Shown: one piece after another, positions 18,824 to 28,373 of the stretch
Position numbering within the stretch: the first letter of the stretch is position 1
How the letters are laid out: every line of letters begins with the position of its first letter
Assembly: GCF_016820245.1 (NCBI RefSeq)
Contig: NZ_JAFCAR010000004.1
Span: 744,001-808,000 of the forward strand
DNA length: 64,000 bases
Origin: Jannaschia sp. Os4
GTDB taxonomy: Bacteria; Pseudomonadota; Alphaproteobacteria; Rhodobacterales; Rhodobacteraceae
Reading direction: 5' to 3'
Notes under the pieces: generated by a model
Told to the model about the DNA's origin: nothing
Databases searched by the model: none
The model's input: the letters and a program-made list of their open reading frames with translations, nothing else
Translations under genes and position numbers: made by a program

Positions 18824-18951
18824 GAATGTACCTTCGATTCATCCGCGCCGCGTCCGTCGGGCACCGGACGCCGCGCAAGGGATGGGGTGCGGAGGGGGAC
18901 CATTCCGGCACGCCGTCCCACCGGCGCGCCACCCGTCCCCCGTTCCGACCG

Positions 18952-24838: not shown

Positions 24839-25030
24839 TCAGAAGGACTGGAGCAGCGTCGTCAGGCCGGTGCGGATGATCAGGTCCACGAAGAAGAAGA
24901 ACGTGGCCGCGACCACCGCGAGCAGGAACACCATCACGGAGGTCAGCGCGACCTCGCGGCGCCCCGGCCACGTGATCTTGCCGATCTCGGCGCGGGTCTG
25001 CTGGATAAACTTGGCGGGGCTGGTGGCCAT
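24839..25030 (-). CDS. secE: preprotein translocase subunit SecE
   Basis: SecE, the essential clamp of the SecYEG channel. 63 residues, the short single-span form usual outside enterobacteria. A conserved amphipathic N-terminal part (KFIQQTRAEIGKITWPGRREV) is followed by one transmembrane helix. AGAGGGA precedes the ATG. It has its own promoter candidate, which separates it from the restriction-modification gene upstream. Confidence 0.97.
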   Translation of the reverse strand: MATSPAKFIQQTRAEIGKITWPGRREVALTSVMVFLLAVVAATFFFFVDLIIRTGLTTLLQSF

Positions 25031-25054
25031 GACGGGTCCCTCTCGACGCAGGCC

Positions 25055-25083
25055 GAGATAGCGGCGCAGGCGGCGGGGTTCAA
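25055..25083 (-). promoter_or_regulatory. probable secE-nusG promoter
   Basis: Minus-strand TTGAAC (25083-25078), 17-bp spacer, TATCTC (25060-25055), 25 bp upstream of the secE ATG. This is a good match to the vegetative consensus. Confidence 0.6.
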
Positions 25084-25198
25084 CCGCCCCCCGCCACGCC
25101 CGACGCGGCGCCCGGCATGGCGACGATCCGCTGCGTCCCGACCGACACGGTCGCCCCGCGCGGGGGGCCGGAGGGTCGCGGCGGCGGCGCGGGGGCCC

Positions 25199-28069
25199 CT
25201 AGCCGCCCGCCCGCGCCCGGTTCAGCGCCAGCAGCCGCGCGAGCGCGTCGTCCGCCGCGATGTCCGCGGGCCAGCCGTAGGCGGCGGCCACGGCGGCGTC
25301 GAGGCGGCGGTGGAGGCCGTCGAGCCATGCGGGCCGCGCGTTGTAGAGGTTGGTGAGGGTGCGCTTCTTCAACTCGGTCGCGGCGGCGTCGTCCACGGGG
25401 AGCAGGCGGTCGGGATAGCCCGCCACCACCTCCGGCTCGCGGCGCACGAGGTCGGGCGGGTTCAGCCACGCCTCGCGCTTGGCGTCCAAGTCGCGCGCGG
25501 CCGCGGCGATGGCCTCGGCGCGGGGGTCGTCGGCGTAGGCGGCGGCGGGGATGTCGGGGGTGAGGCCCTCGGGGAAGGGGAAGGTCTCGAAACAACTCTT
25601 TGCGTTGTAGGTCGGATCGTTTCCTACTCCGTGCCAACTGCACGTCGCTAAAGACCATTTTTCGTGAATTCGTGACGAGAGGATGCCGAATGCAGTTAGG
25701 TCTTGTCGAGCAATCACGACTAGACGGCTATCTGGAAGATAGACCGCCGCCTTAAGCACAAAAAAGCGATGTTTTGATACGCGAGGCGTCAAGATCATTG
25801 CGTCGAGACTACCGGTGGCCTTTCGCATCCCCGGCCTAGCCTCTCCATGTATCCACCAAAGCTCCCTGTGATTGTCCCTGCGAAGTCCATCTCTCTTTGG
25901 CTTCACTTCGTTTCGCACATACTCAAACGGTCCCTCAAAGTAGGCAGCCTCGTCCTTCGGCATATGGGGTCCGAAATCAATGATCCATTCATCAGATGGC
26001 CGTCTTGTAATGGCCCTTCCATTCAGCCACGGGCGAAGGACAGTAGAATTGTTCCTTCCGTTGGGGTTCGTCGGTTGCCGCAAAAAGTCACGCGCCCGAT
26101 CCCCGCTTAGCTCGAAAGGCCCGCTTTTCTGATCGCCGATGAACGCGATATCGGCGTTTTCTCTCAGCGGCTCAGCCCCGGTCATGTCCAACCCCGCCGT
26201 CAAATCCGCCGCGATCCGCCCCACCTCCTCCCCGTCCAGCCGGGGCGCCTCCGCCTCCCCTGCCCCGAACATCACCATCGACACGCGCACCGCCGCGCCC
26301 GCCACCGTCCACGGCTCGTCCGACCACGCCTCGAAGATCGCGCCCGCCTCCGCAGGCCCCGCCAGCACCGCGCGGTTCGCCCCGCCCCTGATCGAGTTGG
26401 TCGTCACCAGCCCCACCCGCGCCGTCCGCCCCGCCTCCACCGCGCGCCACGCCGCCGCGACCCAGTAGGCCACGAGGTCCACGCCGCCGGGCACGTCCGG
26501 GTATGCGGCGCGCAGGGCGGGCGCGTAGTCCTCGCCCAGTTCCGCGATCATGCGCTTGTTGCCGAGGAACGGCGGGTTGCCGACGATGAACTCCGCCTCG
26601 GGCCACTCCGCCGCCGTGCCGTCGTCGGCCAGCACCGCGTCGCGGCACTCGATCGTGCCCAGCGGCTTCAGGATCGGGTCCTTGGACGCCTCGAACCCGT
26701 TGCGGCGCATCCACTGGATCTCGGCGATCCACGTGGATACGCGGGCCAGCTCGGCCGCGTAGGGGCTCAGCTCGATTCCCAGCACGCATTCGGGACCGAC
26801 GGACGGCGCCGGACGCGGCAGCTCCAGCGCCTCGGCGTCGAGGTTGGCCCGATGCTCGAGGTCCTTCAGCGCCGTCAGCGTCAGGTTCAGGAAGTTGCCC
26901 GACCCGCAGGCAGGGTCCAGCACGCGCACCCCGCGCAGCCGCTCGAGGAAGCCCAGATGCGCCTTCACCGCGCGCTCGTGCGCCCGGTTGGCGCGGCGCG
27001 TCGCGGCCCCCGCCTTGGCCGCCGCGCGGGTGGTCGCGGCCTCCCGCTTGGCCTCCCGCTCCTCCTCCAGCGCGGTCTCGATGACCGCGCGGGCCGCGTC
27101 CCACTCCGCGCGCAGCGGGCGCAGGACCACCGGCTCCACGATCTGCATGATCTTGGCCGCGTCGGTGTAGTGCGCGCCCAGCTGGCTGCGCTTGTCGGGG
27201 TCGAGGCCCCGCTCGAACAGCGTGCCCAGAAGTGAGGCGTCGATCTGGCTCCAGTCCATCCGCGCCGCCCGGCGGAGCATCGCGATGTCGTCCGCATCGA
27301 CCGGCAGCGCCGCGTCGTCGTCGAAGAGCCCGCCGTTGAACCAAGGGATGCGTGTGAAGTCGAGCTTGCTGCCACGGGTCGCCATCGCGGCGAAGAGCCG
27401 TCGACAGTTGTCCTGAAACTCATCGACGTCCGAGGCGAACACCATCTTCTCGAACATCTTCTCGGGCAGCAGGCGCACGTCCTCGGCGAACATGCAGAAC
27501 ACGAGGCGGTTGACGAAATGGGCCACGGTGGGCGCGTCGTGCCCCGCTTGGCGCAGCCGCAGCGCGAGGTCGGCGAAGGTCGCCGCCGCATCCTCGGTCA
27601 GGTCGGCGCGGGTCTTCCTCGGGCGGAAGCTCTCCGGCTCCTCGAAGGCGCGGCGCAGAAGGTCGCGCGTGCCGGCATCGCGCAGGTCCTCGATCGCGAT
27701 GTCGTGGCGCTCCTGCACGGCGCCCGTGAAGGCGGTGCGGATGACGATCGCTTGCGTGTCCGAGGCGATCAGCAGCGGCGGGTTGTCGAGCGCGGGGGCG
27801 TAGCGCTGCACCTGCTCGTAGGCGCGGTCGAGGTCGGCCTTGGCCTTCTTGTATTCCCACGCGAAGGCGCCCCGGCGCCACACGTCGGCCCATCCGTCCC
27901 CGCCCGTGGTCTTGGCGGCGCCCTTCTCGAACTCGAAGGTCCCGGCCGTGGCGGGGGATGGCGGCTCCACCCCGAGGAGGCCGCAGAGCGCGATGAAATG
28001 GCTCTGCGCCGAGGCCCGCTCCGACAGCGGGTTGTCCGACCATGTGCCGATGAACGCGTCCGGCGTCAC
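25199..28069 (-). CDS. MmeI-like single-chain restriction-modification enzyme
   Basis: A 956-residue protein matching the type IIL (MmeI) plan in which one polypeptide cuts and methylates. Domains in order are: an N-terminal nuclease (about 1-150) with D62-x9-E72-Y-K74, the spacing of the MmeI catalytic site; a helical linker (about 150-310); an adenine-type methyltransferase with DPACGSGNF at 385-393 and NPPF at 498-501; a target-recognition domain (about 635-825); and a C-terminal helical part. The GTG at 28069 is supported by GGAGG 7 nt upstream. Bases about 25600-26165, encoding the recognition domain, are near 50% GC (29 of 60 in one 60-base line) against about 70% around them. Since one protein modifies and cuts, no separate specificity or methylase gene is needed, and none is present. 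It sits between tRNA-Trp and secE, neighbours that are normally adjacent. The recognition sequence is unknown. Confidence 0.9.
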   Translation of the reverse strand: MTPDAFIGTWSDNPLSERASAQSHFIALCGLLGVEPPSPATAGTFEFEKGAAKTTGGDGWADVWRRGAFAWEYKKAKADLDRAYEQVQRYAPALDNPPLLIASDTQAIVIRTAFTGAVQERHDIAIEDLRDAGTRDLLRRAFEEPESFRPRKTRADLTEDAAATFADLALRLRQAGHDAPTVAHFVNRLVFCMFAEDVRLLPEKMFEKMVFASDVDEFQDNCRRLFAAMATRGSKLDFTRIPWFNGGLFDDDAALPVDADDIAMLRRAARMDWSQIDASLLGTLFERGLDPDKRSQLGAHYTDAAKIMQIVEPVVLRPLRAEWDAARAVIETALEEEREAKREAATTRAAAKAGAATRRANRAHERAVKAHLGFLERLRGVRVLDPACGSGNFLNLTLTALKDLEHRANLDAEALELPRPAPSVGPECVLGIELSPYAAELARVSTWIAEIQWMRRNGFEASKDPILKPLGTIECRDAVLADDGTAAEWPEAEFIVGNPPFLGNKRMIAELGEDYAPALRAAYPDVPGGVDLVAYWVAAAWRAVEAGRTARVGLVTTNSIRGGANRAVLAGPAEAGAIFEAWSDEPWTVAGAAVRVSMVMFGAGEAEAPRLDGEEVGRIAADLTAGLDMTGAEPLRENADIAFIGDQKSGPFELSGDRARDFLRQPTNPNGRNNSTVLRPWLNGRAITRRPSDEWIIDFGPHMPKDEAAYFEGPFEYVRNEVKPKRDGLRRDNHRELWWIHGEARPGMRKATGSLDAMILTPRVSKHRFFVLKAAVYLPDSRLVVIARQDLTAFGILSSRIHEKWSLATCSWHGVGNDPTYNAKSCFETFPFPEGLTPDIPAAAYADDPRAEAIAAAARDLDAKREAWLNPPDLVRREPEVVAGYPDRLLPVDDAAATELKKRTLTNLYNARPAWLDGLHRRLDAAVAAAYGWPADIAADDALARLLALNRARAGG

Positions 28070-28297
28070 GGGCGGTCCTCCATCCGGCGAGGGATGGACC
28101 CGCCCTCGCCTCGCGGGAGGGCGGCGGTCTCGGCGGTCTCGAAGGGGGGTTCGGCGGGGGCGTGGCGGACTCGGGCGGTGCTCATGGCCCCGTTCCTGCC
28201 GCGCCGCAGCGAGACCGGCCAGGATATTTTGTGCATTCTCCACGGATTCCGTGAAGACCGGCCCGCAGGGGTCGTACGGAATGTGAGGAAGTCGACC

Positions 28298-28373
28298 TGG
28301 CAGGGGCAGCAGGATTCGAACCCGCGACCTACGGATTTGGAATCCGTTGCTCTACCAACTGAGCTATACCCCT
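28298..28373 (-). tRNA. tRNA-Trp (anticodon CCA)
   Basis: A 76-nt cloverleaf on the minus strand. The acceptor begins AGGGGTA and pairs with TGCCCCT, with discriminator G and an encoded CCA end. The D-arm contains AGCTCAGTTGGTAGAGC, the anticodon loop is TTCCAAA (anticodon CCA) and the T-arm GGTTCGAATCC. tRNA-Trp next to secE-nusG is the usual alphaproteobacterial order; here the restriction-modification gene lies between them. Confidence 0.97.

Follow-up and report, generated by a model that had tools for sequence, protein, structure and literature searches.

We analyzed a stretch of 64,000 nucleotides from Jannaschia sp. Os4 (contig NZ_JAFCAR010000004.1, positions 744,001 to 808,000), here called the window. 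Between a tRNA-Trp gene and an open reading frame that we take to be secE, judging from its position beside nusG, lies a gene encoding an MmeI-like restriction-modification enzyme with a target-recognition domain (TRD) of unusual composition (Table 1). The GTG start codon of this gene is our choice within a longer open frame. Elsewhere in the window, the Rhodo-rpoB RNA motif of Rfam was found at 18847-18939 on the minus strand, over the gathering score.

Table 1. Features of the restriction-modification locus of Jannaschia sp. Os4; coordinates are those of the window, and GC3 is the GC content at third codon positions.
Feature	Residues	Coordinates	Strand	Remarks
tRNA-Trp		28298..28373	-	upstream edge of insertion site; ARAGORN; Rfam tRNA 28301-28373
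MmeI-like single-chain restriction-modification gene	956 aa	25202..28069	-	GTG start
Backbone before TRD: nuclease, helical spacer, methyltransferase	1-630	26180..28069	-	host-like composition
Putative PD-(D/E)XK nuclease residues	D62, E72, K74	27848..27886	-	invariant columns in 28-row alignment
Methyltransferase motif DPACGSGNF	385-393	26891..26917	-	nine residues invariant in 28-row alignment
Methyltransferase motif NPPF	498-501	26567..26578	-	N498, P499, P500, F501 invariant in 28-row alignment
Low-GC3 segment, TRD	631-828	25586..26179	-	GC3 changepoints; putative exchanged module
Specificity loop GNDPT	816-820	25610..25624	-	aligned with MmeI 806-810 and family rows
FETFPFP motif	827-833	25571..25591	-	C-terminal edge of exchanged segment
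C-terminal helical region		25202..25585	-	host-like composition, GC3 0.97-1.00 from residue 826
secE		24839..25030	-	downstream edge of insertion site; open reading frame

The enzyme and its insertion site

All four domain types looked for were found, which places the enzyme in the MmeI type (Type IIL/IIG). A member of this type would be predicted to cut about 20/18 from the recognition site and to methylate a single strand. The sequence match to MmeI begins at residue 16, and D62, E72, and K74 presumably form the PD-(D/E)XK motif, with a putative catalytic role. The helical spacer between nuclease and methyltransferase (Pfam MmeI_hel, E 8.6e-13) and the gamma-class N6-adenine methyltransferase domain (Pfam MmeI_Mtase, E 8.7e-29) both scored above their cut-offs. 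The TRD was assigned by fold, the Os4 model having aligned to 5hr4 over residues 152-956; the Pfam MmeI_TRD match (E 3e-5, 23.9 bits) fell under the 27-bit cut-off. The predicted structure reached a pLDDT of at least 70 at 893 of 956 residues. MmeI itself is 23% identical to the Os4 enzyme in the structure alignment and differs from it in the residues of the specificity loop (PDB 5hr4; accessible text of PMC4833311). Assignment to the BREX-2 PglX methyltransferases was rejected, the score being 20 bits against at least 400 bits for the NCBIfam equivalog.

The secE frame has a counterpart with 67-83% identity in all 19 relatives from the genus, and the gene upstream of it in Os4 has a lineage-specific location. 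The distance from tRNA-Trp to secE was below 100 bases in three of the 19 and 2.2-2.9 kb in 13 (L250, L252, L253, L255-L262, L264, and L265). The DNA intervening in these 13 is related among them and looks, judging from the two cases listed, like what we take to be a chemotaxis receptor gene. For 16 of the 19 relatives the locus was extended upstream; 13 of these stretches carried tRNA-Trp and three (L251, L254, and L263) did not, and none of the 16 contained a match to the Os4 enzyme. The interval is variable in the genus, and in Os4 (25031-28297) it holds the restriction-modification gene. Integration guided by the tRNA was rejected as an explanation, since the end of tRNA-Trp, taken as its final 12, 15, or 18 bases, had no second copy in the window.

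A search of the genus returned a match of any kind in 8 of 20 genomes, that of Os4 included. The only long match within the same subfamily was in G310, at 58% identity, and G304 contained a fragment with 53% identity over 171 residues. The G310 homologue (L031) is encoded on a contig of 9186 bases (contig 51, L249:1-9186) whose ends overlap by 77 bases, and which is probably a small circular plasmid. Near this homologue, a frame on the same contig reads by eye like a reverse transcriptase. Genes of mobile elements also lie near other homologues: RepA, ParA-like, and TraG-like genes in the case of L041, a resolvase gene and transposase-like genes in that of L040 from Hasllibacter, and a relaxase gene beside L078 (6001-8310) from Palleronia abyssalis. 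The last encodes a 769-residue in-frame form with the same kind of backbone, comprising nuclease, methyltransferase, and C-terminal parts, but without about residues 652-839, which make up nearly the whole recognition domain; either the deletion is genuine or the draft assembly is in error.

Composition and divergence of the recognition domain

A reading of the letters of the window, hereafter the sequence-only reading, had claimed that GC content drops over the recognition domain. This was borne out by GC3, which is 0.53 inside residues 631-828 and 0.95 elsewhere in the gene, with changepoints at 631 and 828. Residues 1-630 have a GC3 of 0.80-1.00 in 30-codon windows, and of a further 12 genes of the window that were checked, 11 fall between 0.93 and 0.98. 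The GC3 expected for the TRD when amino acids are controlled for is 0.94, the observed value lying at z -24. These limits of the segment are in agreement with the published extent of the TRD in MmeI, 621-825 (PMC4833311, accessible text).

The closest homologue found was L040, from Hasllibacter halocynthiae DSM 29318. Its protein is 88-97% identical to the Os4 enzyme in five backbone segments but 46% identical in the TRD, the overall values being 0.91 for the backbone and 0.45 for the TRD; the same contrast was seen with L041 (0.86 and 0.42). Identity to L040 falls sharply near residue 631 and returns near 826, at the FETFPFP motif. At the DNA level, blastn alignments of the two genes end at 26115 and resume at 25591, with 92% identity over 25208-25591. 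How sharp the right-hand edge is depends on the relative compared, since DNA similarity to the more distant L003 and L005 extends to 25690, taking in approximately the last 30 residues of the TRD.

Third bases gave a further contrast. Among codons that specify the same amino acid in Os4 and L040, third-base identity was 0.81 in the flanks (n=469) versus 0.42 in the TRD (n=73), with a Fisher p of 3e-11 on counts rebuilt from rounded fractions. The comparison of trees by domain, proposed with the sequence-only reading, yielded strong conflict over 47 genes (L029, L113, L117, L082, L078, L061, and L083 having been removed). The backbone topology was 785 log units worse on the TRD data (AU about 1e-122), and the TRD topology was 2776 log units worse on the backbone data (AU 1e-4). 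When Os4 was enforced with L040 on the TRD data, the AU test was borderline at p 0.053, and a clade of Os4, L040, and L041 was not rejected at p 0.197. Since the tree tests are weaker for the Os4 gene itself, the case for replacement rests on pairwise identity and the third-base contrast.

These results bear on the idea that the TRD has instead diverged in place, by fast diversifying point mutation since the common ancestor with L040. A pressure toward new specificities acts on the TRDs of the family (PMC4833311, accessible text), and the AU test just described would allow the Os4, L040, and L041 TRDs a common origin. We nevertheless judge this improbable. It is only in the TRD that conserved codons show strong divergence of their third bases, the boundaries are abrupt, and amino-acid selection alone would not shift GC3 from 0.94 to 0.53. 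Judging from the sequence comparisons, the TRD has very probably been replaced since the split between Os4 and Hasllibacter, in one of the two lineages or in both.

The pair L050/L054 shows the converse of the contrast with L040, having 0.58 identity in the backbone and 0.78 in the TRD. Two paralogues, L044 and L118, occur in Chromatium okenii strain LaCa; their identity is 0.87 in the backbone and 0.69 in the TRD, and by eye certain blocks of the two TRDs agree while others differ. Along the Os4 TRD the nearest relative shifts, from L045/L043 at residues 660-699 to L004 at 708-771 and L044/L118 at 804-830. Such changing relatives within residues 636-830 hint that sub-blocks of the domain have been shuffled.

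No close donor of the Os4 TRD was found in samples of 385 genomes of the class and 398 of the phylum, where the best match had 58% identity. The best on plasmids had 57%, and the single phage record with a match had 27%. A DNA-level plasmid search with the TRD region matched one record, over the last 131 bases only. The full-length plasmid search counted one record at 80-90% identity that was absent among the matches listed; it had no counterpart in the DNA search or in that with residues 1-630 (333 records, none at 60% or above).

Base composition across the MmeI-like family

We then compared the GC3 of TRD and backbone in related genes. A length criterion retained 88 of 129 matching open frames; the counts therefore leave out copies that are split or frameshifted. 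The enzyme's own subfamily comprised matches above 500 bits, without L001 (Os4) and L002 (a duplicate of L040); its GC3 set of 46 genes left out L029 (a duplicate of L008) and the shortened, cut, or odd L113, L117, L082, L078, L083, L061, and L097. Two further subfamilies were picked by hand, one of 16 genes (L095 and L102 excluded) and one of 12 (L024 excluded; L030 and L038 each come from a genome already represented by another stretch). The Bacteroidota set of 34 loci was reduced to 31 by removing L207 (2 TRD codons), L216 (89), and L186, which is not from Bacteroidota and is the same record as L076.

The raw GC3 of the TRD was below that of its own backbone in 100 of 105 MmeI-like genes, over backbone values of 0.25-0.95. 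Relative to the amino-acid-controlled expectation, it was lower in 43 of 46 genes of the enzyme's own subfamily (z below -5 in 28), in 16 of 16 and 12 of 12 in the other two subfamilies, and in all 31 Bacteroidota genes with a usable TRD, four of which (L189, L210, L215, and L218) were not beyond z -2. Where backbone GC3 was below 0.35, the TRD was still lower in 10 of 10 genes, with z below -2 in nine. The TRD of L031, from a GC-rich host, was practically level (0.87 versus 0.88 expected). In the mean profile of 31 GC-rich members, GC3 falls gradually from approximately residue 500 to a minimum at 761-780 and has recovered by 821-840. By our cut-off, a low segment was called in 31 of 46 genes, 26 of them with a start at 480-660 and 11 with an end at 810-845; in L084 the low segment falls within an insertion that is not part of the TRD. 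Poor conservation was rejected as an explanation of the drop, the nuclease domain being about equally variable and without such a drop.

The inference from low GC to a recently foreign domain, made in the sequence-only reading, is weakened by these counts, and we reject the view that low GC suffices to prove a recent import. That reading had also held that recognition domains equally AT-rich throughout the family would speak against recent replacement; the family proved largely so, although among the 46 the drop is largest in the Os4 gene. In part, low GC characterizes the TRDs of the whole family, and it gives no date for the exchange. The same counts argue against an assembly chimera or annotation artefact in Os4, as the shift has one direction in nearly all genes, and the Os4 gene is one 956-codon open frame with the motifs looked for and a mostly confident fold. 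The odd lengths of L078, L113, and L117 could be draft-assembly errors, but we consider an artefact in Os4 scarcely credible.

Restriction-modification genes as such are known to differ from the host core in base composition (PMC12707154, in the part accessible), and no description of AT-rich TRDs in MmeI-type enzymes was found in the open-access literature searched. We compared the pattern with that of Type I HsdS domains (L219-L248; 29 of 30 loci used), taking as reference a neighboring gene chosen by position, its identity as HsdM being putative. HsdS GC3 was lower than that of the neighbor in 14 of 14 cases with neighbor GC3 above 0.6, in 6 of 8 between 0.35 and 0.6, and in 1 of 7 below 0.35, which looks like exchange between hosts. 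MmeI-like TRDs show the HsdS-type pattern plus a further downward shift in AT-rich hosts. Import from an average pool is weakened as the whole explanation, since the TRDs of AT-rich hosts are lower as well.

Divergence and host composition were also considered together. The GC of surrounding DNA correlated with backbone GC3 at r 0.91 and with TRD GC3 at r 0.69 (27 loci). The deviation of TRD GC3 did not track TRD lineage (r -0.19, permutation p 0.91, 55 pairs), in a test of low power because such pairs are often close to saturation at third bases. For several pairs of genes from GC-rich hosts whose TRDs are similar, fourfold-site divergence was several times higher in the TRD than in the backbone (L098/L101, 2.0 versus 0.34; L053/L054, 0.99 versus 0.36), and pairs from hosts of middling GC showed no TRD excess (L043/L084, 0.95 versus 1.45; L205/L211, 1.13 versus 1.21). 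Higher fourfold divergence in similar TRDs is what separate arrival of the TRDs would produce, but sites of strongly biased composition also evolve more slowly.

The AT-richness of these TRDs might alternatively be maintained in place, by synonymous selection or by escape from a process that raises GC, in which case composition would be silent on import. The near-uniform direction of the shift over the whole range of backbone GC3 is in keeping with this, as are the 10 of 10 lower TRDs in AT-rich genes, where random import should raise TRD GC3, and the lack of a TRD-lineage signal in the residual GC3. The five genes of 105 that were not lower, and the level TRD of L031 in its GC-rich host, indicate that low GC is not required. 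A version based on rare-codon pausing predicts GC-ending codons in AT-rich hosts, which were absent, TRD GC3 being lower there too; we disfavor it. The HsdS domains point to between-host exchange, and the discordance with L040 would be left unexplained. On balance we find maintenance in place rather unlikely. A tentative proposal, which we would not yet favor over its negation, is that MmeI-like TRDs are a systematically AT-shifted module, evolving apart from their own gene in nearly every host sampled, either by repeated draw from an AT-rich mobile reservoir, at a pace that outruns adaptation to host composition, or through an unrecognized segment-specific process that keeps them AT-rich.

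Probable exchange of the recognition module

Replacement of the recognition module is supported independently of composition, because of the contrast with L040, the sharp edges, the third-base divergence, and the conflicting trees. That the module alone was replaced, as first proposed, is supported by the backbone and TRD identities, by edges at approximately 631 and 826, and by synonymous divergence; the recency drawn from composition is not. We estimate at roughly 85% the probability that a mobile MmeI-like gene lies between tRNA-Trp and secE with its TRD exchanged within a conserved frame. The backbone is kin to the Hasllibacter, strain CCMM004, and Palleronia homologues found near plasmid or transposon genes, and the mobile gene would have come to lie at this site in Os4. 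The TRD (approximately 631-828) would have been swapped for a homologous but distantly related one. The route may have been homologous recombination, most likely inside conserved coding stretches; the candidate sites are the end of the methyltransferase domain and, at the opposite edge, the FETFPFP motif. We lean toward an AT-richer source of the TRD as the reason for its low GC.

The exchange may have changed the recognition motif. In MmeI, residues 806, 808, and 810 are the specificity positions, and an E-R pair in the family exclusively specifies C:G at base 6 (PMC4833311, accessible text). At the aligned positions, the Os4 enzyme has G816, D818, and T820, and L040 has E, R, and R. Of these two enzymes, only that of L040 has the E-R pair at MmeI 806/808, the Os4 enzyme having G-D in its place, and recognition of the last bases is therefore predicted to differ between them. 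The loop is poorly modeled, with pLDDT below 50 at residues 813-817. One TRD guides both cutting and methylation in MmeI (PMC4833311, accessible text), and by analogy a single TRD probably does so in the Os4 enzyme. Since nuclease and methyltransferase are positioned by the same TRD in MmeI, an exchange would then alter cutting and self-protection together.

Wide diversification in specificity is known for the MmeI family (PMC4833311, accessible text). Movement of TRDs is known in Type I and Type III systems, and recombination in the latter occurs at weakly similar DNA encoding conserved motifs and across species (accessible parts of PMC3983042 and PMC10273834). Those systems resemble the Os4 case in that recognition modules are exchanged between backbones; the Os4 case differs in that it concerns a single-chain MmeI-type enzyme and that no donor was found in the searches above.

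The Os4 gene would provide a clean natural example of module change in a single-chain restriction-modification enzyme, for which a close homologue serves as partner and the edges are recognizable. It also serves as a caution that, in the MmeI family, recent transfer should not be read from the low GC of one domain alone. The pattern seen in 100 of 105 genes would mean either that turnover of recognition modules can be measured from composition and synonymous divergence or that these genes have an unexplained local bias.
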